This document shows, piece by piece, positions 1,793 to 40,000 of a stretch of 40,000 nucleotides of DNA (position 1 is the stretch's first letter; each line of letters opens with the position of its first letter). Origin of the DNA: Myxococcota bacterium (GTDB lineage Bacteria; Myxococcota_C; UBA6777). The position numbers and the translations under genes are program-made. Under the pieces are notes generated by a model. That model did not search any database. It was not told the origin of the DNA and saw only the letters and a list, made by a program, of their open reading frames with translations. The stretch is from the NCBI GenBank assembly GCA_023150835.1, contig JAKLKB010000079.1, positions 1 to 40,000 of the forward strand. Direction: 5' to 3'.

Positions 1793-1910
1793 ATACGATA
1801 TCCGAGTGATGTGTACGTACACAAAGGAGAGTACACAGACGCCCTGTCGCTTGGGCAGCCACATCTGCCTGCCCCTACCTCTTTACGATCGTACAACGGG
1901 CGGATCTCGT
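1793..1910 (-). repeat. Family M palindromic element (MITE-like), reversed copy
   Basis: Runs from ATACGATATCCG to CGGATCTCGT, the diverged terminal inverted repeats of family M, with the core GGGCAGCC...GGCAG hairpin between. It fills the gap between the response-regulator gene and the small gene that ends at 1912. On the minus strand the element's first base coincides with the last base of that gene's TAA stop. Confidence 0.8.
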
Positions 1911-1911
1911 C

Positions 1912-2187
1912 TTAACTGGCTGCGATATCGAGGCGCTCGGAGTCTTCGGAGCTTTCTTCGGGGATGGCTTCGGGCGGGTAGATGCAGACGGTGTAGATCT
2001 TGTCAGCACGGAAGATCCACGACTGGCTTTTGACATCCACACAGCTCCACATCGACGGTTCAGGCCGCTGCATCGCACTTTGGATCTCGTTCATGATCTC
2101 TGCGGGGCTTTTGTCGGATTGGATCTTGATGTAGGCGGGTTGGGCTTCTGATTCGTGGCGGATAAAGATGCGGTAGATCTGGCTCAC
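1912..2187 (-). CDS. Small conserved-looking protein of unknown function
   Basis: 91 aa, read from a GTG start with AGGAG 6 nt upstream. An ATG farther upstream (2268) has no comparable ribosome site. The protein begins VSQIYRIFIRHESEAQPAY. It contains a segment KSPAEIMNEIQSAM that looks helical and an alternating hydrophobic stretch WIFRADKIYTVCIYPPEA. The tail is acidic (EESSEDSE). There is no signal peptide, membrane segment or recognised domain. It probably forms a small alpha/beta cytoplasmic protein. I do not recognise the family. It lies upstream of the response regulator on the same strand but is separated from it by a family M element, so co-transcription is doubtful. Confidence 0.65.
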   Translation of the reverse strand: MSQIYRIFIRHESEAQPAYIKIQSDKSPAEIMNEIQSAMQRPEPSMWSCVDVKSQSWIFRADKIYTVCIYPPEAIPEESSEDSERLDIAAS

Positions 2188-4702: not shown

Positions 4703-5407
4703 CTAGAGTTTGCTTTCGATCTCCAGATCAAGAGAGGCGTGAGAGAGGATGCGCAAGGCTCGGCCATCGCGTTCGAGGATGCCGCGTTTTTCGAGTTCGG
4801 ACAGAACGCGGTTGATGGTTTCGCGGCTGGTGCCGAGCATGGAGGCGATCTCTTGTTGGGAGGGGAGTTTGGGGATGACGAAGCCTTCTTCGGTTTCTTG
4901 GCCTTGTTCTTTGGAGAGATCGAGGAGGTAACGTGCGACACGCCCGTATACATCGAGCAAGACGAGATCGCTGATCACAGCGTCAGCTTTGCGCAGGCGT
5001 TCACAGAGCTTTTGCATGACGTTGAGCAGGATGCGGGGGTTGTCTTCGACGACGCGCATAAAGTCTTCGCGTTCGAGGGCATAAAGCAAGGTGGATCTGA
5101 GTGCGATCACGCTCGCAGAGCGGGGGTTTTGATCGAGCAAGGACAGCTCGCCAAAAAAGTCCCCTTCGTCGAGGATCGAGAGGATGACTTCGCGACCTTG
5201 GTTATCGGAGAGGGCGACTTTGACGCGGCCTTCGGCGATCAAGTAGAGTGTTTGGCCGAGGGTTCCGACTTCGACGACGGGCTGGCCGCGTACGCACTTT
5301 TTAGGCCGAAGCATGGGGATCATCGGTCCGAGATCTTCTGCGCTGATCCCTTCAAACAGCGTGACACGAGAAAGCAAGTCGCGTGGTTGAAAACCTTTTG
5401 TACTCAT
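4703..5407 (-). CDS. Crp/Fnr-family transcriptional regulator
   Basis: 234 aa, typical length. The N-terminal cyclic-nucleotide-binding beta-roll (about 15-130) contains GQTLYLIAEGRVKV and the phosphate-binding-cassette region GDFFGELSLLDQNPRSASV. That PBC (FGELSLLD...RSASV) keeps the Gly-Glu and Arg-Ser of cAMP-binding members, so a nucleotide ligand is plausible. A long connecting helix leads to the winged helix (about 165-215), with recognition sequence LPSQQEIASMLGTSRETINR. No Fnr-type N-terminal cysteine cluster is present. The ATG has AAGGA 10 nt upstream. The gene ends just before the FG-GAP lipoprotein gene on the same strand, so the two may form an operon. Regulon not visible. Confidence 0.92.
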   Translation of the reverse strand: MSTKGFQPRDLLSRVTLFEGISAEDLGPMIPMLRPKKCVRGQPVVEVGTLGQTLYLIAEGRVKVALSDNQGREVILSILDEGDFFGELSLLDQNPRSASVIALRSTLLYALEREDFMRVVEDNPRILLNVMQKLCERLRKADAVISDLVLLDVYGRVARYLLDLSKEQGQETEEGFVIPKLPSQQEIASMLGTSRETINRVLSELEKRGILERDGRALRILSHASLDLEIESKL

Positions 5408-5534
5408 GGTTTTGTCATCCTTCTAAAAAAAGAAGCGCAGCAGCGACCGAAGGAAAAGGCACACAGCCAGAAAGAGCGTGGTGAGCGCTTGGGTCTCTTG
5501 GCCCGTGTTGTGTGGGAGCGTGAAAAAGGGGTGC

Positions 5535-5645
5535 GTTGCATCGGTTGTGGTTTCCGTACGTCTTTTGGAAGGCGCTATATCGAGCTTGTGTTTGGGCCTC
5601 CGTCGAGTTGCATCGGTTGTGGTTTCCGCACGTCTTTTGGAAGGC
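5535..5645. repeat. 39-bp direct repeat, two copies, 72-bp period
   Basis: Copies at 5535-5573 and 5607-5645 share GTTGCATCGGTTGTGG...CGTCTTTTGGAAGGC with one mismatch (GTACG versus GCACG). The phrase GCATCGGTTGTG also occurs in the 72-bp array at 21346, whose period is likewise 72 bp, so the two may be related. Confidence 0.8.
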
Positions 5646-5902
5646 TGAAAGCCAGCAAAGCACCCCCCCGTTGTAGCCGATGTTGTGCGGATTGCAAAGA
5701 GGAATGCGCGGCCTCGCTGCAAAAAGGCAATCCCTTGTGCTTGCTTGTCGTGGGCAACGGTGTTAATCATCAGCGCGTTTTGGGACGGTGGGCCTGCGGG
5801 CCTATTCTTTGGGCTGTGCGTTGTGATGTGTTGGTTGCGTCGATGGGCAGATCACGAGCATCTTTAAGAATGGGCGGCGAGTACAAGCCTTTTGGAGGTT
5901 GA

Positions 5903-6008
5903 GTCGAAATCCGCCCGTTGCGTGATCGTAAAGGTGTAGGGGCAGCCCCCTGTGGCTGCCCGATAATCGGGCGTCTACGCACAATCCTTTGTGTACCAGA
6001 TATCGTGT
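5903..6008 (+). repeat. Family M palindromic element
   Basis: Begins TCGAAATCCGCCCGTTG and ends AGATATCGTGTG. The core has the perfect stem GGGCAGCC...GGCTGCCC preceded by GTAGG, and a second arm AATCGGGCGTCTACGCACA. It sits about 50 bp upstream of the lipA start, so it lies in or next to the lipA leader and could influence its transcription (inference). Confidence 0.85.
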
Positions 6009-8760: not shown

Positions 8761-8884
8761 ATACGAAATCCGCCCGTTGTGTGATCGTAAACATGTAGGG
8801 GCAGCCCCCCGTGGCTGCCCAAGAATAGGGCGGTTCGCGAACCGCCCCTGCATCATGCGATCATACATTACGCGGAGATCGTCT
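8761..8884 (+). repeat. Family M element with inserted GGGCGGTTCGCGAACCGCCC palindrome
   Basis: Left terminal repeat ATACGAAATCCGCCCGTTG and core GGGGCAGCC...GGCTGCCC are typical. The right arm carries a perfect 20-bp palindrome (8828-8847) also present twice at 15450-15469 and 15530-15549. The right end (GCGGAGATCGTC) is degenerate and runs directly into the 21-bp tandem array. Confidence 0.8.
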
Positions 8885-13198: not shown

Positions 13199-15271
13199 AT
13201 GAGTACACGCATCCGTATCTACCAGATCGCAAAGGATCTTGGCGTTGACAGCAAAGACATGTTGGAGTTCTTGCAACACAACGGCTACGAGAAATTCCAA
13301 AGCATCCAAAAAACCCTTGATGCCGAAGAAGTCGAAGCCGTCCGTCAAGCTTGGCTCGCCGCTCATGCCCCCAAACCTGCCTCCAGCAAAACCACCGCTG
13401 CATCGGCAAAAACCACCGCTTCACCCACCAAAACATCCTCAGCATCGGCCAATGCCACCGCAGCGCCAACGAAAGAAACATCATCTTCTGTGAAGACCGC
13501 TCCTGCGGTCGTTGAAGCGCCTGCGGTTGAAACTGTCGCAGAACCTTCTCGCACAAAGAAAACCAAAAAAACCGCTGAACCCGCCGTGAGTACGGCTCCT
13601 GTGGTTGTCGCGCCTGCCCCCGTTGTTGTCGCGCCTGCCCCCGTTGTTGTCGCGCCTGCCCCCGTTGTTGTCGCGCCTGCCCCCGTTGCTGTCGCGCCTG
13701 TCCCCGCTGCTGTGGTCAAGACGGAGACCGTCGCTGTGGCTCATGCTGCGCCCGTTGCTGCGGCTAAGACAGAAGCCCTCACAGAAGAGGCTGCCCCCAA
13801 AACCTCTGCTCGTGGGCGAAAACCCATCAAGAAAAAAGCAGAGGAAGCCGCTGATCCTTCCGTAACGTCAGACACTACCGAAGCCGCCACAACCGCTTCT
13901 CCCGAAAAAGAAGCCCCAACAAGATCTGTGGAGGCCCCCAAAAAGGCCGAAGTGGCTGCAAAAGAAGCGACGGCCCCCAAAAAGGCCGAAGTGGCTGCAA
14001 AAGAAGCGACGGCCCCCAAAAAGGCCGAAGCGGCTGCAAAAGAAGCGACGGCTCCTGTTACAAAAGAAGCGACGGCTTCGGCAGCCAAAACAACGCCATC
14101 GATCTCATCAAGCGAAGAAGACGCCTTTGAAGCTCCTGACAGCGAAGAAGACGAAGAAGACGAACAACAAATCGGCGTTGCTTCGGGTGTACTCGAACAA
14201 GCGATGTTGCGCTACGCTGTGGACTTTGTGTGGCGCTGTTTTACTTCTTCTGGTTTCCCTGTGCGCGTTGCGCTTGGAGATCGTCGAACAAGCGGGCAAG
14301 AACTCTTGTTGTATTCCAACGAGATCATCGCGTCGTTGAACGGTGACGAACACGCCCTTGTCACCGAGCTTTACCAAAATGTGGGTTATCTGCTTGCAAA
14401 AGCCCTGCGTTATCGTTTTCGGTCGGGTAGTGCGATCCGCTTCATCTTTACGCCCCTTCAAGAGATCGATATCTCACCTGCTGCCGAGGTTCAACAAACC
14501 ACCGCCACGAAACCAGTCGCCGCCGCTGCACCAAAGCCCGAAGCAGCGGCAGTTCGCCAAAAGCCCGAAGCAGCGGCAGTTCGCCAAAAGCCCGAAGCAG
14601 CGGTAGTTCGCCAAAAGCCCGAAGCAGCGGTAGTTCGCCAAAATCCCGAAGCAGCGGTAGTTCGCCAAAAGCCCGAAGCAGAAACGCCGATTGTTCCTTC
14701 AAAGCCCGAAAAACTCAAACCTCTTGTTGAAGAAAGACTCATTCCTTCTGCCCAAGCAAAACACGCAAACGCCGATCACATCGAAGAGATCGACGAAGAA
14801 GATGAGATTGAAGAGTTCCATGCGGATGCGGAAGGGTTTGATGTCGACGTCGAGGGGTTTGTTGGGGACGAGAGCGAGGAGGAGATCGAAGGACTCGTCG
14901 AGGATTCGAGCGAAGAGCTTGATGCAGATATCTCCGAGGTTCAGGAAGAGGCGGACGAACGGCCTTCTGCTCAAGACACGCGCCCCCGTCGCGATGCCAT
15001 CGTTGATGGAAAGCCTTTGCACGACGATTCCTCTGAAGATGCTCGGTTTGCGCGGATATCGGCTCTGCTCGCAGAGCGCGCACAACATCTCGGAAAATCC
15101 ATCCTGATCGATATGCTGAATTCACACGAACGACGCCAAATCCACACGCATATCGGAAACTCACACGGCAAGATCCGCACCTTTTCGGATGGCGAAGGCA
15201 TCTTCCGCCGCCTTGTCCTATCGCCCCCCGGGATCACTCCCCGTCAACGCCCAAGTCAAGGGCGTCGTTAA
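13199..15271 (+). CDS. KhpB/Jag-like RNA-binding protein with IF2_N-like N-terminus and long repeat linker
   Basis: 690 aa in the genomic slot of jag/khpB; usual members are about 200-350 aa. AAGGAG lies 5 nt before the ATG. Residues 1-55 (RIRIYQIAKDLGVDSKDMLE...LDAEEVEAVRQAW) look like the translation factor IF2 N-terminal domain, not the usual Jag_N. Then come ~265 low-complexity residues, with VVVAPAP (7 aa, 4 copies) and KKAEVAAKEATAP (13 aa, 3 copies). A KH-like fold follows (about 325-420), but the place of the GxxG loop reads NGDEHALV. Six copies of KPEAAVRQ-type 9-mers (446-494) and an acidic stretch (526-587) lead to a clear R3H domain at 620-679 ([30 protein letters not shown]). KhpB homologues bind RNA and affect cell division. 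Function here is inferred from position and R3H. Confidence 0.85.
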   Translation: MSTRIRIYQIAKDLGVDSKDMLEFLQHNGYEKFQSIQKTLDAEEVEAVRQAWLAAHAPKPASSKTTAASAKTTASPTKTSSASANATAAPTKETSSSVKTAPAVVEAPAVETVAEPSRTKKTKKTAEPAVSTAPVVVAPAPVVVAPAPVVVAPAPVVVAPAPVAVAPVPAAVVKTETVAVAHAAPVAAAKTEALTEEAAPKTSARGRKPIKKKAEEAADPSVTSDTTEAATTASPEKEAPTRSVEAPKKAEVAAKEATAPKKAEVAAKEATAPKKAEAAAKEATAPVTKEATASAAKTTPSISSSEEDAFEAPDSEEDEEDEQQIGVASGVLEQAMLRYAVDFVWRCFTSSGFPVRVALGDRRTSGQELLLYSNEIIASLNGDEHALVTELYQNVGYLLAKALRYRFRSGSAIRFIFTPLQEIDISPAAEVQQTTATKPVAAAAPKPEAAAVRQKPEAAAVRQKPEAAVVRQKPEAAVVRQNPEAAVVRQKPEAETPIVPSKPEKLKPLVEERLIPSAQAKHANADHIEEIDEEDEIEEFHADAEGFDVDVEGFVGDESEEEIEGLVEDSSEELDADISEVQEEADERPSAQDTRPRRDAIVDGKPLHDDSSEDARFARISALLAERAQHLGKSILIDMLNSHERRQIHTHIGNSHGKIRTFSDGEGIFRRLVLSPPGITPRQRPSQGRR

Positions 15272-15585: not shown

Positions 15586-15662
15586 CGGTATTTCCGCCAT
15601 AACAAGGCGCGTATGGGGGTTGCCCCTACGTTTTACGCTCACACAATGAGCGGATTCCGATC
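15586..15662 (-). repeat. Fused fragments of families G and M
   Basis: 15586-15620 matches family G (CCGGTATTTCCGCCATAACA, GGCGCGTATGGGG). 15615-15662 matches one half of family M (GCCCCTACGTTTTACGCTCA, GAGCGGATTCCGAT). On the minus strand the family M end lies only about 4 bp beyond the stop of the pcnB-like gene. The fusion point uses a shared GGGG/CCCC run. Confidence 0.65.
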
Positions 15663-15664
15663 TG

Positions 15665-17017
15665 TCAGAAGACCCAACGAAACGAAGCGACAGGATCGAG
15701 TTCGGCGATACGGATGTTGTCGAGCCATCGGGGGATGGGGAGTTCGTTGGCTTCGAGTTCAAAGCGAAACAATTCGACCATCAGCGAGAAGTGAGGGAGG
15801 TCGCGCAAGGCCAGAGGGATCGTGGGTTGTTCGCTAAGACTGGGGAGTTGCCAGTATTCGTGGAGCGAAAGATAAAAAGACTCGCGGCGTTGCGCGCCAA
15901 GCCCAAAGCTTGCGAGAAGGGGATCAATGCTTTGCCAAAAAGCATCACGCCACAAGCGTTGGAGTTTTCGGGGGGTTTCAGCATGGAGAGAGAAGGCGGC
16001 TCTCCACCACAGCGGCAAGAAAAAAGCGCACAACAGCGCATCATCGGGGAAGATGTTGTCGCGGGATATGCGGTCGTCGAGTTGGCGGAGGTGATTCCAA
16101 AAAGCGTCTTGGGTTCCCCAATAGGCCGTTACAGTCGGGCCTAATTGCCATGTCAGATCGGCCCCTTCGTCGTTGTCGTCGCGTTGCAGCCAGCGTTCCA
16201 GTTCGGGAAGCCAGCCCCGCAACAAGCCTGTTTCCCACATCAGACGCAGCGAGGCTGCCGAGGAGCCGCCGCGCAGTTCGCGCAAAAACTCTTCGAGTAC
16301 GCGGGCGGTTGAGCTTGTGTTGAGTAGATGCGCTTGTTTGCGGATCTCGTTGCGGGTGTGGGGTTCGATGGTAAAGTCGTTGCGAGCGGCGTGTCGGACA
16401 GCGCGCATCATACGAACGGGATCTTCTTGAAAGCGCACTCTGGGATCGCCGATGATACGGACGATCCGCGCATCGAGATCGACGAGACCTTGGACGTGAT
16501 CGAGGATGCGTTGGGAGCGCAGGTCGTAGAACAGTCCGTTGATGGTGAGATCGCGGCGCAGAGCGTCTTCTTCGGGGGTACCGAACTCGTTGTCTTCGGC
16601 GCGGGGTCCGTGGGAGCGGTGTCCGGGAGGGGGGAGACTGCGGAAGGTGCTGACTTCGACCACATCGCCATCGCGGAAATAAATGTGCGTGATCAAGAAG
16701 CGGCGGCCGATCGTGCGGCTGTTTGCAAAGAGCCTCTTGATCTCCGAAGGCGTGGCGTCTGTGGAGATATCGAAGTCTTTGGGGGTGCGTCCAAGCAGTA
16801 GATCGCGCACGCTCCCTCCGACAAGATAGGCGGTGTGTCCGAAAGAATTGAGGCGCTCAAGCACCCAAACAGCTTTGGGATCGATCTTTGATGGATCGAG
16901 GGAGTGATCACCGATGTCGAGGATGGTGGTCTTGGGTGCAAGTGGCGAGGGACGGGCGGGGGAGCCTTGCGAAGCGGAGGCTCGGGGGGTTGGGTGTCGT
17001 CGGGAAGATGGCTGCAT
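15665..17017 (-). CDS. pcnB: Poly(A) polymerase, class II nucleotidyltransferase
   Basis: Adds 3' poly(A) tails to RNA, aiding its decay in the cytoplasm; about 450 aa. The head domain has VGGSVRDLLLGRTPKDFDIS with the catalytic DxD (about 66-85). The poly(A)-polymerase signature RTIGRRFLITHIYF distinguishes it from CCA-adding enzymes. Other family motifs are EEDALRRDLTINGLFYD and RFQEDPVRMMRAVRHAA. The C-terminal half is helical and diverged. The start is uncertain. ATG 17017 gives a basic Ser/Pro-rich leader of about 30 residues and lacks a clear ribosome site, and a start at 17122 is possible. It lies downstream of the Ser/Thr kinase gene on the same strand, with a 157-bp gap. Confidence 0.9.
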   Translation of the reverse strand: MQPSSRRHPTPRASASQGSPARPSPLAPKTTILDIGDHSLDPSKIDPKAVWVLERLNSFGHTAYLVGGSVRDLLLGRTPKDFDISTDATPSEIKRLFANSRTIGRRFLITHIYFRDGDVVEVSTFRSLPPPGHRSHGPRAEDNEFGTPEEDALRRDLTINGLFYDLRSQRILDHVQGLVDLDARIVRIIGDPRVRFQEDPVRMMRAVRHAARNDFTIEPHTRNEIRKQAHLLNTSSTARVLEEFLRELRGGSSAASLRLMWETGLLRGWLPELERWLQRDDNDEGADLTWQLGPTVTAYWGTQDAFWNHLRQLDDRISRDNIFPDDALLCAFFLPLWWRAAFSLHAETPRKLQRLWRDAFWQSIDPLLASFGLGAQRRESFYLSLHEYWQLPSLSEQPTIPLALRDLPHFSLMVELFRFELEANELPIPRWLDNIRIAELDPVASFRWVF

Positions 17018-17174
17018 GGATCTTATGCTCGTGATGGGAAGAAAAAATCGGCCTCGTGTGGCGCGCAGTATAACACGCTGTACGCGGCACGCAAGCATAC
17101 GTTCGATCCATCTGCCCGTCAACGTTCCCGCCCCGCTGCTTCGGACGCATGGGCCTCTAAAAAAAGCCGTGTGT

Positions 17175-19847: not shown

Positions 19848-20056
19848 GGGTTGATCTCCTGTTTGGTGTGGTGAGAGGCAAGGATGTGCGAACCTTGCGG
19901 CTGTGTATCATGTTGCACCGTAAAGTGATCCACCGCGAAGTGGTGAGAGGCAAGGGTGTGCGAGCCTTGCGAGGGTGGAGCAAACACAGACATGGCTACA
20001 TACCGGCAGCATAGCCTGTGCGTCTGCAAACACGCAAGAGTCGGAGGAGTGCGGTG

Positions 20057-21298
20057 ATGGAGCGATGGGATCGGTTGTATCCGTGGAAACGCTGGTCGCA
20101 GGCGGAGAAAGACGCGGCAGGAGGCGGTGGGTACTGGGATCTCTCGGGAAGTGTGGGGGTGGAAGAGGGCTTGCGCGTGTTGGAGGCGCGTGGTGGGGTG
20201 GTCGGTTTGGATCTTTCGTGGTATCGGGGAGATACGACGCTGCTCGAATCGTTGCTTGAGGATGGATGGGAGGGGTTGTGTTGTTTGCGCCTGCGGGGAT
20301 GGCGGATGGACGACGGTGTCAAAGGCGTGTTGCGTCGGCTGAAAAGATTGCGGATGTTGGATCTTTCACAGACGCGGTGGGGCGGGGACTTTCGCCCGTT
20401 GGCGGGAGCTTGTGTGGAAGAGATGGAGTTGGCGTGGGCTTCGATGTATCCGGGAGGATTGCAGGGGGTAGAAGGGTTGCCGCGATTGAAGCGTTTGGGA
20501 TTGCGTGGCAACAAGCTGACGGGGGCCGCGTTGCATCCGCTCGAAGGGAGCGCGGGGTTGGAGTCGTTGGATATCTCGTACAATCCGCTGCGGGACGATG
20601 CGGTGGTGATCTTGTCGAAGCTGGTGGGGTTACGAAAGCTGTGGGCTTCGGCGACGGAGATCCGTTTGGAAGGTTGGGAACAGGCGATGGGATGGCCGTT
20701 GTTGGAAGTGCTGCATCTCGATCAGCACCGTGTGGGCGGAGAGTCGGTGGCTTGGGTGACAAAGTGTCCGAACCTGCAAGAGTTAAGCTGGCAAGCCACA
20801 GAGGTGGGGGATCGGGAGTTGCGTTGGTTGTGCGGTTTGCGGCGGTTAGAGCGTTTGTATCTTTCGGATACACGGGCAACAACGGAAGGGATGCGCTCCG
20901 TCTCGTTGTTGTCGGGATTAAAGGAGTTGACGTTGGCGCGAACGGCTTGTGACGATCTCGCGTTGTGGCTTTTGAGCGGATTGACGGGTTTGACGCATCT
21001 GTCTTTGCAGGGGACGATCATCCGTTCGGAAGGGTTGCGTCATCTGGCGTTGTTGCATCGCCTCCAAGAGTTGCGTTTGGGGCAGACGGCGGTGGATGAT
21101 ACAGCGATCCCGTGGTTGCGACGTTTACAATGGCTGCGCTTTTTGGAGATGGAAGACACAGAGTTGACCGAAGAAGGGCTGATCGGCTTGATCTCGATGC
21201 CTCGTTTGGAAAAGCTCGCTTTGCTCGGCACTTCGATCAGCGAAGAGGCCCGTCAACGCTTTCGGATCGCTTCGCCGCATTGTGCGTTGTTGTCGTGA
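20057..21298 (+). CDS. Leucine-rich-repeat protein, probably cytoplasmic
   Basis: 413 aa, no signal peptide or membrane segment. GGAGGAG lies 7-9 nt before the ATG. The N-terminus is Trp-rich (MERWDRLYPWKRWSQAEKD). From about residue 60 to the end it is made of leucine-rich repeats of about 23-24 residues with the pattern LxxLxLxxTxxxxxGLxxL (for example LKELTLARTACDDLALWLLS and LQELRLGQTAVDDTAIPWL). This resembles the GALA/ribonuclease-inhibitor style of bacterial LRR. Such proteins usually bind other proteins; the partner is unknown. The upstream neighbour is the divergent 24-Cys gene and the downstream neighbour is a convergent Ser/Thr kinase. The final base of the TGA stop is also the first base of a family M end. 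Confidence 0.88.
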   Translation: MERWDRLYPWKRWSQAEKDAAGGGGYWDLSGSVGVEEGLRVLEARGGVVGLDLSWYRGDTTLLESLLEDGWEGLCCLRLRGWRMDDGVKGVLRRLKRLRMLDLSQTRWGGDFRPLAGACVEEMELAWASMYPGGLQGVEGLPRLKRLGLRGNKLTGAALHPLEGSAGLESLDISYNPLRDDAVVILSKLVGLRKLWASATEIRLEGWEQAMGWPLLEVLHLDQHRVGGESVAWVTKCPNLQELSWQATEVGDRELRWLCGLRRLERLYLSDTRATTEGMRSVSLLSGLKELTLARTACDDLALWLLSGLTGLTHLSLQGTIIRSEGLRHLALLHRLQELRLGQTAVDDTAIPWLRRLQWLRFLEMEDTELTEEGLIGLISMPRLEKLALLGTSISEEARQRFRIASPHCALLS

Positions 21299-21637
21299 TA
21301 CGATCATCCGAGAGAAGTGCGATCGAAAGGTAGGTGCGATCCGCTGTAGACGCCCTGTTGTTGGGCAGCCACAGGGGGCTGCATCGGTTGTGCATTGTTG
21401 CGGTAATGGATATTTCGGTAGACGCCCTGTGGTTGGGCAGCCACAGGGGGCTGCATCAGTTGTGCATTGTTGCGGTAATGGATATTTCGGTAGACGCCCT
21501 GTGGTTGGGCAGCCACAGGGGGCTGCATCAGTTGTGCATTGTTGCGGTAATGGATATTTTGGTAGACGCCCTGTGGTTGGGCAGCCACAGGGGGCTGCCC
21601 CTACATCTTCCGCTTGCACGATGGGCGGATTTCGTAT
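21298..21637 (-). repeat. Family M element with core amplified as a 72-bp tandem array
   Basis: Starts ATACGATCATCCGAG at the LRR stop codon and ends GGGCGGATTTCGTAT. The core is repeated at 21346, 21418, 21490 and 21562, an exact 72-bp period. Each unit opens GTAGACGCCCTG, carries the GGGCAGCC/GGGCTGC arm and ends GTAATGGATATTT. Units differ by one to three bases. The period is a multiple of three and lacks stops in one frame, which makes a false repeat protein. Confidence 0.9.
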
Positions 21638-21700: not shown

Positions 21701-21815
21701 ATACGAAATCCGAGTCACGTGTACACGAAGGGTTGTGCGTAGACGCCCTATGGTTGGGCAGCCACGCCTTGCTGCCGCCTACGTTTTGCGATCACACGAT
21801 GGGCGGATTTCGTAT
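21701..21815 (-). repeat. Family M element, complete copy with perfect terminal repeats
   Basis: 115 bp from ATACGAAATCCG to its exact complement CGGATTTCGTAT, with the GACGCCC and GGGCAGCC arms inside. Its left flank GTGCGTTGTTGTCGTG repeats the last 16 bases of the LRR gene before its own element. It ends 16 bp from the stop of the minus-strand kinase gene. Confidence 0.88.
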
Positions 21816-21831: not shown

Positions 21832-23901
21832 CTAGCGACGGAGACAATAGGTGGGATCAAGGGGGGGTTCGTTTTCTTGTTCGCGTTCTTGTTCGCGTAG
21901 GCGGAGATGGATAGTGGTGAGGGCGGATGGAAGGGAAACTTGGCAGGAATGAAAGCCTGTTTGATCGAGGATGATCATGGTGGCAAGGGCGGGGATACAG
22001 ACACCGCCCTTGTGCATCTGCGGGGTGGCGTGTGGGCGGAGGTGGAGGCTGAGGGTCTTGGGGCGAAAAGGCGTGATCCGCACAAAGCGCATGGTGGAAG
22101 GACACAGCGAAGGCGTTGCGGTCTGGGGTGGCTGGAGCGAAGGCGTGGGTTGAAGGGTCGGTCGATGGTGTGCAGGGCGTGGTGTGCTGAGAAGGCGAGC
22201 CTCGGGAGACGGACGGCGGGAGCGGGCTTTGCGTCTTGCGCGTTTGCGAGGCGTCGCAGCGATATCGCGAACGGACGATGGATCGGGGCGTTGGGTGGTT
22301 CCCGATGCACTGTTTGGATCGGGTGGTTTGGATGGATGAGAAGGGGCCGATGGGTCGGGTGGTTTGGATGGATGAGAAGGGGCCGATGGGTCGGGTGGTT
22401 TGGATGGATGAGAAGGGGTCGATGGATCGGGTGGTTTGGGTCGGAGCAGTCCATGAGAAGAGGTGGGATGAAAGAGGGCGGAGAGATGGGTGCGGAGGAA
22501 GAGGGCGGAGAGTCCGCCAAAGACAAAGAGGGCAAGCAGCAGCAAGAATGGAGCGGCTCGGCGGAGAGGGGGTTTGCGTTGGGTTGGGCGGTTTTCGCCG
22601 AGGAAAGTGTGTTCATCAAAGGGGGTGGGGAGTGGGGAGGGTTCGGTTTTTTTGAAGTCAAGGGCGTCTAGATCGGTGGCGGCGAGGGTGGCGGCATAAG
22701 CGAGGGGAGGGGCTTGGTGAGTGGAAAGGATATCGCTTTGAGAGAGGGATTGGGCGGAGGATTCGAGGGTGGTGGGGGAAGGTCGGAAAGCGTCGGCGAC
22801 AAGGGTGGGTGTGTTGTCGATGGCTTGTTCTTGGGGACGGGTGAGGGCATAGGACGGTCCATCGGGTTCTGCGAGAGGTTTGGAGGCAAAGGTGGGAGGG
22901 GGAGCCTCGCCTTGATAAAAAGGAGCGATGGCATTCCAGAAGGCTTCGGCGGAGCGGTAGCGTTTGTGGGGGTTGCGGTGCAGGGCTTTTTGAAAGATCG
23001 CATCGAGGGCATGGGGGAGATGGAGGTGGGGGTAGGCTTGGGAGGGCGGGGGCATGGTTTCGTATTCGAGCCGCATCTGGAGGATCTGAACCAAGGTGAT
23101 CTCGCGGCGTTTTTGGGGAGGGATCAGCGGGAGTTCGCCAGTGAGCATCTCGTGAAGTAGGATCGCCATCGCGTACAGGTCGGTGTGTGGGCCGATCTGT
23201 TGGTTGGTGGCTTGTTCGGGGGCGATGTAAAAGGGCGTGCCAAGGATGCCTTTGGTCGAGATCTCAAGGGAGCCTGATCGGAGCGTTTCGCTGAGCAGGG
23301 GCTTGGCGATACCGAAGTCGATGATCTTCACGAAATTATCGCGCCCGCGCAGGGAGATCAGCATCACATTGTCGGGCTTGAGGTCGCGATGGACGATCCC
23401 TTCGTTGTGGGCGGACTGCATGGCATCGCAGATCTGTCCGAAGACTTCGAGGCTCCAATCAAAAGGCAGAGCCGCGTTGGTTTGGCGTAAGAAGTGTGTG
23501 AGCGGCAATCCACGCAGGTATTCCATGACGTAGAAATAACCGAGATCTGGAACTTCGCCAAAGTCATCAAACACACGGACGATATGGGGGTTGTGTTGAG
23601 AAAGGATCGACGTAAGCTGAACTTCGCGAAGGAAGCGTGGTTTCATCCCGGGTTTGTCGATCAGATCAGGCTTGAGTACCTTGATCACACGGTCGGGATC
23701 GCGTTTGATCAGGGTGTGTTGTGCGCGATAGACGGTCCCGAAACCTCCTTTTCCCAACACGTCGATCAGTCGGTATTTTCCAGCGATCTCAAGGAGCGGA
23801 AAGTGGCAGTGGATGCAAAAGCGCAGCGGTCGGCTTGGATCGTGATAGGGAGCGAGATTCATCTCGCAATGAGGGCAAACAGCAAGGGGAGTGTTCGTCA
23901 T
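21832..23901 (-). CDS. Eukaryotic-like Ser/Thr kinase with N-terminal zinc ribbon and outer proline-rich domain
   Basis: 689 aa. Residues 9-32 form a CPHC...CIHC zinc ribbon. The kinase domain starts directly after it: LGKGGFGTVYRA (about 49-60), RVIKVLKPD, HRDLKPDNVM (about 168), IDFGIAKP (about 195), GTPFYIAPEQATN. A low-complexity region and a TM helix (FLLLLALFVFGGLSALFL, about 452-470) follow. Outside the membrane is a Pro-rich segment with three to four 12-residue repeats DPSAPSHPSKPP (36-bp DNA units) and then a basic stretch. A C-terminal domain of ~110 residues contains MRFVRITPFRPKTLSLHLRP and ends in ITIHLRLRE-like strands. ATG 23901 fits the zinc-ribbon start but has only a weak ribosome site; ATG 23940 is possible. 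Divergent from the two-TM module at 24102. Confidence 0.92.
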   Translation of the reverse strand: MTNTPLAVCPHCEMNLAPYHDPSRPLRFCIHCHFPLLEIAGKYRLIDVLGKGGFGTVYRAQHTLIKRDPDRVIKVLKPDLIDKPGMKPRFLREVQLTSILSQHNPHIVRVFDDFGEVPDLGYFYVMEYLRGLPLTHFLRQTNAALPFDWSLEVFGQICDAMQSAHNEGIVHRDLKPDNVMLISLRGRDNFVKIIDFGIAKPLLSETLRSGSLEISTKGILGTPFYIAPEQATNQQIGPHTDLYAMAILLHEMLTGELPLIPPQKRREITLVQILQMRLEYETMPPPSQAYPHLHLPHALDAIFQKALHRNPHKRYRSAEAFWNAIAPFYQGEAPPPTFASKPLAEPDGPSYALTRPQEQAIDNTPTLVADAFRPSPTTLESSAQSLSQSDILSTHQAPPLAYAATLAATDLDALDFKKTEPSPLPTPFDEHTFLGENRPTQRKPPLRRAAPFLLLLALFVFGGLSALFLRTHLSALFHPTSSHGLLRPKPPDPSTPSHPSKPPDPSAPSHPSKPPDPSAPSHPSKPPDPNSASGTTQRPDPSSVRDIAATPRKRARRKARSRRPSPEARLLSTPRPAHHRPTLQPTPSLQPPQTATPSLCPSTMRFVRITPFRPKTLSLHLRPHATPQMHKGGVCIPALATMIILDQTGFHSCQVSLPSALTTIHLRLREQEREQENEPPLDPTYCLRR

Positions 23902-24101
23902 CGGCGTGGTGAGCCTCGCGGTGAACGCATGGTGGTGCATGCAGGGCAGTGTGGGTTGCGGGCATGGCCTTGGTTATTTCGTTCCGATGCGACCGCGCTG
24001 TCAAGAGCGCGTCCGTCTTGTGGGCCGTCCTATCGCTCTCATCCCACTCTTCGACAAGATGTGGGCGCATGGTCTTTGCCCATAAATCGTAGGAGATCGC
24101 G

Positions 24102-25232: not shown

Positions 25233-25672
25233 GCATCTTGCAAACGCTGTTGAGAGGGTGTCGCGGGTGGGGGATGGTGTTGGGATGTTGTTCGGTGTTC
25301 GGAGGCTTTGGTTTGAGCGGGTGTGTTGTCGAACCCAACGTGATCTACTGCGACCGCAAACCAGACATCTGCCCCACAGGTACATTTTGCTGGAATGAAA
25401 CCTTTTGTGTCGATGGTGCGGGCGAAAGCAACGGAGGACGATCAGAAACTCCACCCGAACTTCCCGCATGGGAAGAGGCTCCGCCCTTTGATGCAGGGGA
25501 AACATCTCCCGAGTTCGATGTCGGGCTTCCCGAAACCACAAACTGCTCGTTGGGTCTTACGAATTGTGGAGGGGCGTGTGTGGATCTTTCAAACGACTCA
25601 ACAAACTGCGGTGTCTGCTTTGTAAAGTGCGAAGCCAAACAGGTCTGCGCGGCGAATGTCTGTGTTCCGTAG
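25229..25672 (+). CDS. Cys-rich lipoprotein (module copy 2)
   Basis: 147 aa from a TTG start that overlaps the previous stop, with GGGAGG 5 nt upstream. The lipobox LSGC ends the signal (VFGGFGLSGC), giving a lipidated Cys32. Next is a Cys-rich patch (YCDRKPDICPTGTFC), then an acidic Pro/Glu linker. The C-terminal motif reads TNCGGACVDLSNDSTNCGVC followed by KCEAKQVCAANVCV. That motif is frequent in secreted proteins and lipoproteins of myxobacteria and relatives. It is likely disulfide-bonded and surface-exposed. The coupling to the two-TM protein suggests the two products act together. Confidence 0.85.
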   Translation: MSILQTLLRGCRGWGMVLGCCSVFGGFGLSGCVVEPNVIYCDRKPDICPTGTFCWNETFCVDGAGESNGGRSETPPELPAWEEAPPFDAGETSPEFDVGLPETTNCSLGLTNCGGACVDLSNDSTNCGVCFVKCEAKQVCAANVCVP

Positions 25673-25698
25673 GGTGTGTTGTTGCAACCAACGTAACT

Positions 25699-25990
25699 GG
25701 TTTCGGATGGGCTGTCTGGAAAAGCAAAGAGCTTGTTCTGGTTTCGGACGAGCTGTCTGGAAAGTCAAACAGCATATTCTGGTTTCGGATGAGCTGTCTG
25801 GAAAGTCAAACAGCGTATTCGGGTTTCGGATGAGCTGTCTGGAAAGTCAAACGGCGTATTCGGGTTTCGGATGAGCTGTCTGGAAAGTCAAACAGCGTAT
25901 TCTGGTTTCGGATGAGCTGTCTGGAAAGTCAAACAGCGTATTCTGGTTTCGGATGAGCTGTCTGGAAAAGCAAAGAGCGCATTCTGGTTT
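25699..25990. repeat. 41-bp tandem array, seven units
   Basis: Units begin GGTTTCGGA at 25699, 25740, 25781, 25822, 25863, 25904 and 25945, with an eighth partial at 25986, an exact 41-bp period. Each contains GAGCTGTCTGGAAAGTCAAA then CAGCGTATTC; GCTGT and ACAGC can pair as a small stem. Units differ by one to five bases and the first and last are most diverged. It follows the Cys-rich lipoprotein gene. No spacers are present, so it is not a CRISPR array. Confidence 0.93.
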
Positions 25991-26084
25991 CGGACGGGCG
26001 ATCGAGCCGCCAAGGCCAAACCTGTTGCGTGGGGTTTTGTATGTGAACTTGGGATAGGAGTGACGCAGTTGCCAAAAAAAGCCG

Positions 26085-33353: not shown

Positions 33354-33518
33354 GCGGATGGGCGCAAACGTGCGGAGGTCGAAGCCAGCGTCAAACACAC
33401 GATCCTTCTTTGACTTGGAGAAAGAGAGATCGCAAAAAGCACAGACAGCAGAGGGCCGTTTTGTGAACGGAAGGCTCGGTTGGTTCGGCTTTTGAGGGTC
33501 GGATGGAGGATTTTGGTG

Positions 33519-34211
33519 ATGGTACAGAAGATGTGGCAACAACGACCTCGCCCGCAGTGGAGTGTGGCGATGGGAGCGGTGATGTTTCTCGTGGCATGTG
33601 CGTTATCGGGTTGTGCGACGACACCGCCTGTGCGTCAACAAGAAGGGTTGGATCTGGGGAGCCATCGTTTGACGGTGTATTGGTTGGCGCAAGAGACCAA
33701 GCGTCGTCGTCAGGTGGCGTTGTACAAGCAGAATCGGCGTTGGATGTGGGTTTCGCAGCGATTTGCGTCATCGTTGCGGATACAAGGGACAGGGCGGTTG
33801 AGGGATGGGCGTTTGGTGCAGTATGCGGGTCCGTGTAGGCCGTCGGGAGATCGTTGTATGGTGGTGAGACAGATCGATCGGCGGTTGTTTCCGATGGGGG
33901 TGGGGGCATCGGGGATGCCGTTGGCGGCGTTTCGTTCGGTGGCGGTGGATACAGCGCGCATACCGTTGGGGACGCGGTTGTATATTCCTGCGGTGCGGCG
34001 ATTGTTGCGAAAGGCGGGCGTTCCGCATCATGGTTGTTTTTTGGCGGATGATCGGGGTGGGCGGATCAAGGGAGCGAGAATCGACTTGTTTGTGGGGAAC
34101 CGCGCCTTATTTGAGCGTTATTTAGGGGAGCGGATGCCGCGTGATGTGCGGGTGTATACGCGCCATCCTCGATGTGAGCGATTGCCCGAACGCTCGGTCG
34201 CCAAACGATAA
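33519..34211 (+). CDS. 3D-domain lipoprotein (MltA-C/YuiC-like)
   Basis: 230 aa. The signal peptide ends in a strong lipobox, LSGC. The C-terminal half is a 3D domain, with RSVAVDTARIPLGTRLYIP and CFLADDRGGRIKGARIDLFV. These contain the three aspartates (AVD, ADD, RID) of the double-psi beta-barrel active site found in MltA-type lytic transglycosylases and YuiC/Sps proteins. A cell-wall (peptidoglycan) cleavage role is likely from the family. GGAGG lies upstream, 9 nt before ATG 33519 and 6 nt before GTG 33516, so either may start it. The TAA stop shares its last base with a family M element. Confidence 0.9.
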   Translation: MVQKMWQQRPRPQWSVAMGAVMFLVACALSGCATTPPVRQQEGLDLGSHRLTVYWLAQETKRRRQVALYKQNRRWMWVSQRFASSLRIQGTGRLRDGRLVQYAGPCRPSGDRCMVVRQIDRRLFPMGVGASGMPLAAFRSVAVDTARIPLGTRLYIPAVRRLLRKAGVPHHGCFLADDRGGRIKGARIDLFVGNRALFERYLGERMPRDVRVYTRHPRCERLPERSVAKR

Positions 34212-34326
34212 TACGAAATCCGCCTGTAGTGTGATCGTTAAAGATGTAGGGGCAGACAGGTGTGGCTGCCCGATCACAGGGTGTCTCCGCGCCCATCTTC
34301 GATAACACATCTCGCGGATATCGTAT
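34211..34326 (+). repeat. Family M element
   Basis: 116 bp from ATACGAAATCCGCC to GCGGATATCGTAT. The core here reads GGGGCAGACAGGTGTGGCTG, so the stem is reduced to GGGCAG/CTGCCC. It begins on the last base of the 3D-lipoprotein stop codon. The remaining 220 bp before the next gene hold no recognised feature. Confidence 0.88.
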
Positions 34327-34545
34327 AAGGCCCGCCTTGGCGTCTGTTTTGGGTGGTGAGTGCATCGTGCTTGACAGGTGTGTGGTCCTGTCGCAATATC
34401 CCGCATGTTTTTTCAGAGCTTGCCTGCGCTTGGCGTGGTTTCGTGCGTTGTGTTCGGTGTATTCGAGACTTGGAGGCAGGGACACGGAGCAAAAGAAACT
34501 GCGCGAGGTCGGTCTGTTAACGTTAGCCATGACGAGGTTCGTGCG

Positions 34546-36325: not shown

Positions 36326-36526
36326 ATACGAAATCCGCAGGGCGCGATCGTAAAAATGTAGGAGCAGACAGGTGTGGCTGCCCAAGAATCGGGCGTCTTC
36401 GCACTATCCTTGGCTGTGTACATCACTCGGATATCGTATAAAGAGGTAGGGGCAGACAGGTGTGGCTGCCCAAGAATCGGGCGTCTACGCACTATCCTTG
36501 GCTGTGTGCATCACTCGGATATCGTA
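36326..36526 (+). repeat. Family M element with duplicated right part
   Basis: Full copy 36326-36439 (ATACGAAATCCGC to CGGATATCGTAT). Then 36446-36526 repeats the core and right arm almost exactly (GTAGGGGCAGACAGGTGTGG to CACTCGGATATCGTA). The two right parts differ at only a few bases, so the duplication looks recent. Confidence 0.85.
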
Positions 36527-36900: not shown

Positions 36901-39621
36901 GTGTGGGAGATAGAAAAGGAGTTGTTGAGGGCATGCGAGCGCCTGATCCAGCAGGGCGCGTTGCAAGAGGGGTCTTTTCTTGCGGCGCGTGCGATCCAAG
37001 ACGTCAACGGAGAAGATCTCGGATTGATCTTGGAGCGGATGGGTGGGGTGTCAAGCGAGACGTTGCAGATGACCCTTGCCGAGCGATGGGGATGTCGGTT
37101 TTTGTCGGACGAACAAGTGATGCTGTTGTGGGAAGAAGCCGCGATCCAACCGCCCCGACAAGTGGCGCTGGCTTGGATGCGGCAAGGCCGATTTGTGCCG
37201 TTGCGCTTCGCAAATGGCTCGCTGTCGCTGTTGGTGTGGCGGCCCTTGTCGGAGGCGACGCAAATGAGGCTGTGTGAGGCGGTGGGCTGCGCTCACCTCG
37301 AATACATCTTGATCTCCTCGTATGCGTTGGGGGCGCTCCTCGAACGCTTAGAACCCGGGAAAGAAGAGATGTCGATCACTTCGGGGGAATTGGATGTGAT
37401 CGTGCCTGCGGAGCAGAGCCTTGGGTCCACAGAACGGCCTGTGGGATTGCAGATCGGCTCTTCTTTGGGGATGGGATCGTCCTCCTTGACTCAAGGACTG
37501 CCTGTGGTGCGGACGATCTCTTCGGACGATCTGTTGCCTTCGGCCAAAGAACCGACGATGCTGGATTCTCTCGATCACAACGCCAAAGAAGGGGCCTCTC
37601 AAAGCTTGAGCGATCTGATCGCAGCCCCCGAAGATCTAAGCGGTGATGCTTTGCCTCGCGCCTCGGGTGGATCGGGTGATGCGTTGCCCCGTACTGCGGG
37701 TGGATCGGGTGATGCGTTGCCCCGTACTGCGGGTGGATCGGGTGATGCGTTGCCCCGTACTGCGGGTGGATCGGGTGATGCGTTGCCTCGTACTGCGGGT
37801 GGATCGGGTGATGCTTTTCCTTTGGGTTTGGGTATGGAGGTGCCCAACGCCGCCGCGCCGTTCAACACCAAGCAACAATCGGATTCATCGGAGCGTTTGG
37901 GTTCTGCTGCGTCGTCCTCAGACAAGCGAACGATCCCTCCGCCCTCGTTTTCTTCGCCTGCTGCGGAGAAATCTCCGCATCAACTGCTCGTGACGAATCC
38001 GATGTCTTTGGTGTCACCGGGGCCTTTGGCGACCATGTCGCTGGATACGATCTCGGGGCGGAAAAAATCTCCGCTCGATCCGATGACCTTTTTGGAAGAG
38101 ATGGCATTGCCTGCCGCGCCGACATCTTCTGCGAGGATTCTCTCTTCTGCGGCAAGCCAAATAACGCAACGCACAGAACCCAAGACATCGCAGAGTTCGG
38201 AGCTTCTGTCGGCTTCTTCGATCCGTTCTCGCAGCGAAAGCGGCGATGTGGCGTTTTTTGGTGCGGCGACGCCGCGTGGTGTGTTGATGCAAGGCGCAAA
38301 GCAAAAGTCGGGAGGGGCGTTGGTGATCGGAGGTTTGGAGCGCTCGACGTTGGGGGGGATACCGACGTTGTCTTCGGCTTCTGCGCCGATCGATCCGCTG
38401 GCATTGTTGCCAAAAGCTGATCCCTCTGAGCGTTCAAAAGAAGCTTCGGCCTTTTTTGACGAAGCCGTGAACAGCGCGGTGGCAGGGCGAGAACAAGCCC
38501 AAGCTTGGCTTTCTTCTGAGCAGGTCGCCGTTTCTTCGGATGCGTTGGAGGCGATCGGATCGAAAGGAGAGATCCGTAAACAACCTGTGGGTTCGGTGTA
38601 TACGCCTGAATCCTTGGACTCTTTGGAGGCTTCCCGTCCTTACAAAAACACCAACGCCCAAGCCGATGCGACCGAGGCTCCGACTTCTGCGGATCTGATT
38701 TGGGCGAGCCAAATCAAACCAATGTTCGTCGAAGAAGAACCCACCTCGGTCGACAACGAACCGCTCTTTCCACAAGAAGCCAAGCGGCGTGCTGCACAAA
38801 AAGATACCAACACACAACCTCCACAGATCCCCCACCCATCGACGCAATCGGCCACAGATGAGACTCTCGACCCACACCGCAACGCGCAATCGGTCACACA
38901 CGAGACTCCTGCATCGCATCGCATCAAGCTTTCAGAGGCCGCAGACGATCCCAAGCCATTGATGCGGACAGGGCGGGATTATCGCACCCTTCCTGTGGGA
39001 GTTGTGCCGTCTTTGATCCGCAGCCTCGAACAGGAAGAACCAAGCTTTGCCCTGTTTGAGCGCGATCCTCGTGGTGCGGAAACCGCCCGCGCCAAACTGC
39101 CCTCACGCGCACGACACGCGGAAAAAGAAGAACCCTCCGCCCCGTCAAGTCAAGCTTCTCCGTCTGGAAAGCTCGAATCATCCGAGGCGATCGAACCCCG
39201 TCCGCGCATTCCAAGTTCTAGCGCACTCAAGCCCGTCCCTTCGCGAACGAACGTGCTGTTGTTGCGCATCGGCATGGCCCTCGGGATCGTCGTTGTTTTG
39301 AGCCTTGGTTTGTGGTATTTCTTGTTGCGCAATCAGTCGGAAAATGCCTATAATACGGACGAACCATCGACAAAGCGTTCTTCCCAAGAAACCCCTCCAA
39401 ACGTCGATCCCTCGCCACCCAATTCCACAAGAACCTCTGTTCCGACTCGATCTGCTGTGGCGTTGCCTCCCGCACAGCGCCTTCCCGCTCAAGCCTCCCC
39501 TCGCAAAAAACCCGAAGAGGCCCATCCAACTCCCACCCTTCCACGCGAAGAACAAGAATCGTTGTGGCGTTGGGACCCCCAACAAGGAAAGCTGGTTCCG
39601 AAACGCCCCGAACCTCGGTAA
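36901..39621 (+). CDS. MshEN-like N-terminal domain protein with long linker and C-terminal TM
   Basis: 906 aa from a GTG start with GGGA 7 nt upstream. Residues ~1-155 look like the GspE/MshE N-terminal (MshEN) domain, made of two copies of a helical motif (LIQQGALQEGSFLAARAIQ and LGLILERMGGVSSETLQMTL) followed by FVPLRFANGSLSLLVWRPLS. Some such domains bind cyclic-di-GMP. The usual ATPase part is absent. The next ~600 residues are Ser/Ala/Pro/Glu-rich and probably disordered, with five copies of GGSGDALPRTA (33-bp units, 37660-37815). A TM helix (LLRIGMALGIVVVLSLGLWYFLL, about 784-806) is followed by a ~95-residue Pro-rich outer tail ending WRWDPQQGKLVPKRPEPR. A signal receptor or scaffold role is inference. 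Confidence 0.8.
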   Translation: MWEIEKELLRACERLIQQGALQEGSFLAARAIQDVNGEDLGLILERMGGVSSETLQMTLAERWGCRFLSDEQVMLLWEEAAIQPPRQVALAWMRQGRFVPLRFANGSLSLLVWRPLSEATQMRLCEAVGCAHLEYILISSYALGALLERLEPGKEEMSITSGELDVIVPAEQSLGSTERPVGLQIGSSLGMGSSSLTQGLPVVRTISSDDLLPSAKEPTMLDSLDHNAKEGASQSLSDLIAAPEDLSGDALPRASGGSGDALPRTAGGSGDALPRTAGGSGDALPRTAGGSGDALPRTAGGSGDAFPLGLGMEVPNAAAPFNTKQQSDSSERLGSAASSSDKRTIPPPSFSSPAAEKSPHQLLVTNPMSLVSPGPLATMSLDTISGRKKSPLDPMTFLEEMALPAAPTSSARILSSAASQITQRTEPKTSQSSELLSASSIRSRSESGDVAFFGAATPRGVLMQGAKQKSGGALVIGGLERSTLGGIPTLSSASAPIDPLALLPKADPSERSKEASAFFDEAVNSAVAGREQAQAWLSSEQVAVSSDALEAIGSKGEIRKQPVGSVYTPESLDSLEASRPYKNTNAQADATEAPTSADLIWASQIKPMFVEEEPTSVDNEPLFPQEAKRRAAQKDTNTQPPQIPHPSTQSATDETLDPHRNAQSVTHETPASHRIKLSEAADDPKPLMRTGRDYRTLPVGVVPSLIRSLEQEEPSFALFERDPRGAETARAKLPSRARHAEKEEPSAPSSQASPSGKLESSEAIEPRPRIPSSSALKPVPSRTNVLLLRIGMALGIVVVLSLGLWYFLLRNQSENAYNTDEPSTKRSSQETPPNVDPSPPNSTRTSVPTRSAVALPPAQRLPAQASPRKKPEEAHPTPTLPREEQESLWRWDPQQGKLVPKRPEPR

Positions 39622-39679: not shown

Positions 39680-40000
39680 GTGACCAAAAAACCCCGTGTT
39701 TGCGCCCGTTGCGAGCGACAGTACCGTCGGTTTGAAGAACGGTGATCTCTTCGCCAACGTGGGGTCAAGGGGCCTTCGGTCCCTTGCGGGGCGTGGGGCG
39801 GTGCCCCATACGCGCCTTGTTAATGTGGAAACATCGTAGAGTCGGTCTTGATCGCCTTTTTTTTTCTACCCCCCCTCAATCCCCCCGTGAACGGGGGGAA
39901 GTTGGAACGGGCAGCGTCTGCGTCTCGTGCAAACAGCGTGCGTCATGAAAAAACAAAATCCCCGCTGCTTCCGACTTTCGCTCCCTCCCCTGTTCACGGG
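39680..40000 (+). repeat. Family G dispersed repeat, right-end copy
   Basis: Inverted counterpart of 1-325. Order: GTGTTTGCGCCCGTTGCGAG, GTGGGGTCAAGGGGCCTTCG, GCGCCTTGTTAATGTGGAAA, the palindrome CCCCCCGTGAACGGGGGG (39881-39898), then the near-identical final ~145 bp. The sequence is cut inside the CCCTCCCC hairpin by the window end. It starts about 60 bp after the stop of the MshEN-like gene. Confidence 0.85.

Follow-up and report, generated by a model that had tools for sequence, protein, structure and literature searches.

Why do the ends of one small repeat fall exactly at the stop codons of genes? The question is raised by the window (the whole 40-kb stretch of DNA that we analyzed), in which a preliminary description had noticed stop codons directly abutting copies of a repeat, family M. 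It had proposed that the hairpins of these repeats serve as portable terminators or 3' stabilizers, or that the element targets stop-codon contexts. The features in the window are the following.

1794..1911, − strand: family M next to the TAA (1912-1914, minus strand) that ends ORF 1912-2268; read on the + strand, each flank is TTA
5903..6007, + strand: family M with TGA/TGA flanks; no real gene end there
8762..8883, + strand: family M with TGA/TGA flanks, intergenic
15616..15662, − strand: partial family M end; ORF 15665-17122 (poly(A)-polymerase family) has its TGA stop 2 bp away
21299..21636, − strand: expanded family M copy between two TGA, of which the left one is the stop of ORF 20018-21298 (LRR protein)
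21702..21814, − strand: family M with TGA/TGA flanks; the kinase ORF 21832-23940 has its stop 17 bp away
34209..34211, + strand: TAA, stop of ORF 33480-34211 (3D-domain protein) and at once the left-hand TNA of the target-site duplication; a single TAA at the empty site of the relative KLAP109
34212..34325, + strand: full-length family M, TACGAAATCCGCC...GCGGATATCGTA (nhmmer, model positions 1-113, 103 bits)
34326..34328, + strand: TAA, right-hand TNA of that duplication
36327..36526, + strand: family M (36327-36438), then a tandem, 5'-truncated second copy (36439-36526)

The three contacts described earlier are real: stops adjoin the elements at 34212 (TAA, 34209-34211), 21299 (TGA, 21296-21298), and 1911 on the minus strand (TAA, 1914-1912). 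The last base of the stop had been taken for the first base of the element, which was off by one: the two have no base in common, and the stop is the 3-bp duplication that precedes the first element base. Likewise, the gaps given as about 4 bp at 15665 and 16 bp at 21832 measure 2 and 17 bp. Pfam domains were found in two of the genes concerned (3D in ORF 33480-34211, leucine-rich repeats in ORF 20018-21298); ORF 1912-2268 has no Pfam domain and a good coding score. ORF 4739-5902, next to the 5903-6007 copy, runs antisense to a CRP-family gene. The 34212-34325 copy folds as a single long branched hairpin (−47 kcal/mol, z −4.7). The expanded copy at 21299-21636 contains internal 72-bp tandem repeats with a GGGCAGCC hairpin in each.

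Family M and its TNA target-site duplication

We built a family M profile on 43 copies and matched it with nhmmer to a sample of 2.385 Mb (32%) of the 7.56-Mb genome, obtaining 365 matches, of which 195 are full length. The family is a MITE, a non-autonomous DNA transposon: a short, non-coding unit of ∼113 bp with terminal inverted repeats (TACGAAATCCGCCC...CTCGGATATCGTA; end sequences TACGAAATCCG / CGGATATCGTA), duplicated target sites, and filled versus empty orthologous sites. Both strands fold as a long branched hairpin, and the interior holds inner hairpins of the form GTAGGGGCAG...CTGCCC. None of 190 copies lies inside a called gene; the calls came from a simple codon-model caller whose starts are unreliable, and the analysis uses stops.

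Identical TNA trinucleotides stand on both sides of 69 of the 190 full-length copies, where chance predicts 0.05% (0.0005), and TAA, TTA, TGA, and TCA all occur. The conserved ends of the element exclude the flanking stop, which lies outside them. Flanks away from stops form a weak palindrome, with G at −3 and C at +5, T being avoided at −1 and A at +3. Compared per site, TAA/TTA is used at about twice the rate of TGA/TCA.

Filled and empty sites in a close relative

We compared stop-adjacent copies with the same-genus MAG Myxococcota KLAP109. Nine of the 11 tested sites, some judged from alignment coordinates only, are empty in KLAP109 with the gene end intact, and two (L147 and L055) are shared, the L055 copy with a different interior. 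The empty sites carry a stop at the homologous codon; the element thus entered pre-existing stops precisely. At L093, for example, this genome reads AAATAA[M]TAACCTGCG and KLAP109 reads AAATAACCTGCG. At the two sites of the window that could be aligned, the KLAP109 flank alignments overlap by 3 bp, TAA (1794-1911), or by TAA plus one chance base (the 34212 copy); for the 21299 copy, KLAP109 has no orthologous flank to align. The L084 site is also empty, and its flanks stand 7 bp apart. At L165 and at the 6554 site of L141 the TAA is intact in KLAP109 and the downstream DNA has diverged, while at the 3284 site of L141 KLAP109 has TGA versus TAA in this genome. KLAP109 also holds a copy, L181, without counterpart in G000.

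These sites bear on whether the element itself supplies the stop, insertions upstream of the original end having truncated the genes. There is a precedent, as GTAG-type REP repeats are reported to give TAG stops to flanking ORFs (PMC3733652). However, element-free relatives end at the same codon and the stop lies outside the conserved ends, so that this explanation has almost no chance of being right; truncation by family M is refuted at the tested sites by the KLAP109 orthologues.

The distal side of the insertions is less regular. In many stop-adjacent insertions the distal duplicate is unlike the stop copy, which counts against a simple TNA explanation. L155 and L100 are as clean as L093 except for this copy: their targets, known from KLAP109 to be TAA, have the distal duplicates GAA (L155:7521-7633) and TCA (L100:11028-11140). 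Two further known TAA targets, L165:18703-18815 and L141:6554-6675, have TGA. Changes at these four sites far exceed what the ∼6% genome divergence predicts, and altered duplicates often retain the T and the A while the N differs. They look as if the donor flank had been carried along, or as if gap repair had been inaccurate.

Family M copies are mostly just 80–85% alike, and most tested insertions are younger than the split from the ∼94%-identical relative. Together these figures imply either that many diverged source copies are active or that turnover is fast.

Stop codons as targets

How strong is the coincidence with stops across the genome? We measured the distances from element ends to stops, as the preliminary description had proposed, over the 32% sample, and the distribution peaks at zero. 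Of 206 element ends oriented toward the 3' end of a gene, 44 are at distance 0, versus about one per bp at 1–50 bp. Placement thus exceeds what random insertion into gaps would give, as had been claimed. In a control family that duplicates TA, none of the 15 ends within 50 bp is at distance 0 (Fisher p = 0.0003). The stops concerned are 39 TAA, 5 TGA, and no TAG. TAG accounts for 227 of the 1290 stops (17.6%), so about 8 would be expected among 44 (P(0 of 44) = 0.0002). The uncorrected peak is ∼40-fold per bp over 1–50 bp, and correction for the availability of TNA takes away most of it: the coincidence is far above chance placement, yet mostly expected because the target is TNA.

The main cause of the coincidence is very probably the TNA duplication together with selection that spares coding DNA. 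A transposase acting in trans on family M would make a 3-bp staggered cut at TNA, and the TNA would be duplicated. Since each of the four targets (TAA, TGA, TTA, TCA) is a stop codon when read on one of the two strands, an element could occupy a gene's stop, duplicate it, and spare the protein: insertion at a TAA or TGA would yield a stop-element-stop copy and leave the product unchanged. Insertions within coding regions would normally be lost by selection, and TAA and TGA stops would offer guaranteed harmless targets at each gene end that uses them. The roughly twofold TAA/TTA preference, the weakly palindromic flanks, and avoidance of promoters and operon gaps are probably added factors.

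Is the stop favored beyond its availability as a TNA? The preliminary description had considered targeting of stop-codon contexts. This holds insofar as the target TNA is a stop on one strand; it fails insofar as TAA/TTA sites in the vicinity that are not stops receive insertions at about the same rate and convergent regions have no significant excess. Among exact-duplication copies, in small counts, occupancy per 1000 available sites is 34.9 for TAA stops versus 31.2 for TAA/TTA sites 0–30 bp downstream, and for TGA-type sites 4.7 at stops versus 18.4 at 0–30 bp downstream; the downstream denominators omitted positions within 12 bp of genes, which makes the downstream rates approximate and somewhat too high. 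For expected counts, we redistributed each element among the TNA sites of the intergenic region in which it lies. In convergent regions 21 copies are at stops versus 17.7–18.7 expected (z about 1, not significant). Tandem regions have 18 versus 8.7–10.7 expected (z 2.8–3.8), an excess of ∼1.5–2-fold at TAA stops (z about 2–3 when sites near the next start are omitted). We attribute this tandem residue mainly to selection against other positions, and a real preference for stops could also lie behind it.

A transposase, or its complex, with an active attraction to translation-termination or 3'-end contexts over and above the TNA preference would account for that residue. It would also account for the contrast between TAA stops (38 of 459 occupied) and TGA stops (4 of 401), a difference of ∼8-fold, of which a twofold target preference falls short. 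However, TAA/TTA sites 0–30 bp downstream are used at about the same rate as the stops, and the convergent regions show no significant excess. On balance active targeting seems distinctly unlikely.

In an extended form of the portable-terminator proposal, the elements are bidirectional terminators or mRNA-protecting 3' hairpins that are retained, with selection for the position at the stop. The strong folds of both strands, the residual tandem excess, and the distribution over intergenic regions all speak for it: a family M copy is present in 30% of convergent regions versus 12% of tandem and divergent ones. Among regions of equal length, up to 300 bp, the convergent ones have 3–4-fold higher occupancy for each TNA site. 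The difference in regional occupancy fits avoidance of promoters and operons and a bidirectional 3' role equally well. Two convergent pairs with stops at both element ends (TAA...[M]...TTA; L080:11857-11969 and L047:6724-6828) also favor it, although one TNA cannot be both stops. On the other hand, an intrinsic terminator, a GC hairpin followed by a U-tract, is not what we found: only 4 of the 44 stop-abutting copies have at least 5 T in the 9 nt past the distal end, and no terminator-like site was called at the element. TAG stops are wholly excluded, which a benefit from termination would not bring about. A terminator role is thus not supported. Moreover, the zero-distance excess is insignificant in convergent regions, where termination would matter most, and the gene end is intact at the nine sites that lack the element in the close relative. 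We therefore consider the proposal improbable.

About as improbable is a reading in which family M duplicates TNA and has in addition specialized in stops as safe harbors, either through an active preference for TAA stops or because a hairpin after the stop benefits the host transcript. If this were true, family M would be a dispersing 3'-end module.

Known systems and other repeats

Under the explanation that we favor, duplication of TNA and selection on coding DNA, we infer that the mobilizing enzyme is a DDE transposase, IS5/IS1031-like. The IS1031 group of the IS5 family targets TNA and makes a 3-bp duplication (PMC12016507). This group and family M have in common an exclusive 3-bp TNA duplication and terminal inverted repeats; family M differs in that the element contains no transposase gene and none with matching ends was found. 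Its inverted repeats also differ from those of ISLrh, the sole IS1031-group repeat compared. No transposase-bearing copy was present in 2.4 Mb, and a search for an autonomous partner, as paired matching ends at most 4 kb apart with equal TNA, found none. Across the whole genome, the Pfam families DDE_Tnp_4 and DDE_Tnp_1 gave no element with family M ends (PF13359, 0 matches; PF01609, 5 matches, none in a full-length element with matching ends). Some MITEs outlive their autonomous partner. The plant Tourist/PIF-Harbinger MITEs have a 3-bp TWA duplication and IS5-related transposases, and their duplication can be likened to that of family M, although their hosts are eukaryotic.

Among bacterial repeats, the Correia/NEMIS, RUP, and ERIC MITEs resemble family M in their size of ∼100–150 bp, inverted repeats, target duplication, hairpin transcript, and many intergenic copies (PMC2229807). 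They mostly use TA, whereas family M duplicates TNA, and because of this family M, unlike the TA-using MITEs, can occupy a stop and leave it intact. GTAG REP repeats have similar-looking hairpins, lie downstream of genes, and also have ends at stops (PMC3733652). However, REPs are linked to tyrosine transposases and carry the TAG in their own end (PMC3733652), whereas the stop at family M is target DNA and never TAG. GTAG REP/RAYT mobilization, which proceeds without target duplication, was rejected on account of the clear TNA duplication.

A general rule follows: wherever a TNA-duplicating transposon inserts, its border has a stop codon on one of the strands, and it can enter gene stops without damage. 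The rule accounts for repeat ends at stops with no need for a regulatory role, predicts that TAG-ending genes are spared, and lends itself to checks on any IS1031-type or Tourist-like element; in open-licence papers we found no statement of this consequence of TNA duplication. Insertions at stops alter the 3' untranslated regions of many genes together, between close relatives.

Other repeats were also seen. A second small family, mostly 112 or ∼165 bp long with TA flanks, has the ends GGACTTACGCAGTT...AACTGCGTAAGTCC (L093:18772-18883 and 32 other pairs); this GGACTTACGCAGTT-ended family served as the control in the zero-distance test. In the window, positions 8-151 and 39857-40000 form a 97% inverted repeat at both contig ends, so that the break in the assembly lies within a repeat. 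Many short tandem repeats (21, 27, 33, 36, and 41 bp), mostly within called genes, lie at 13595-13713, 14506-14708, 22279-22439, 25658-26040, and 37609-37853.
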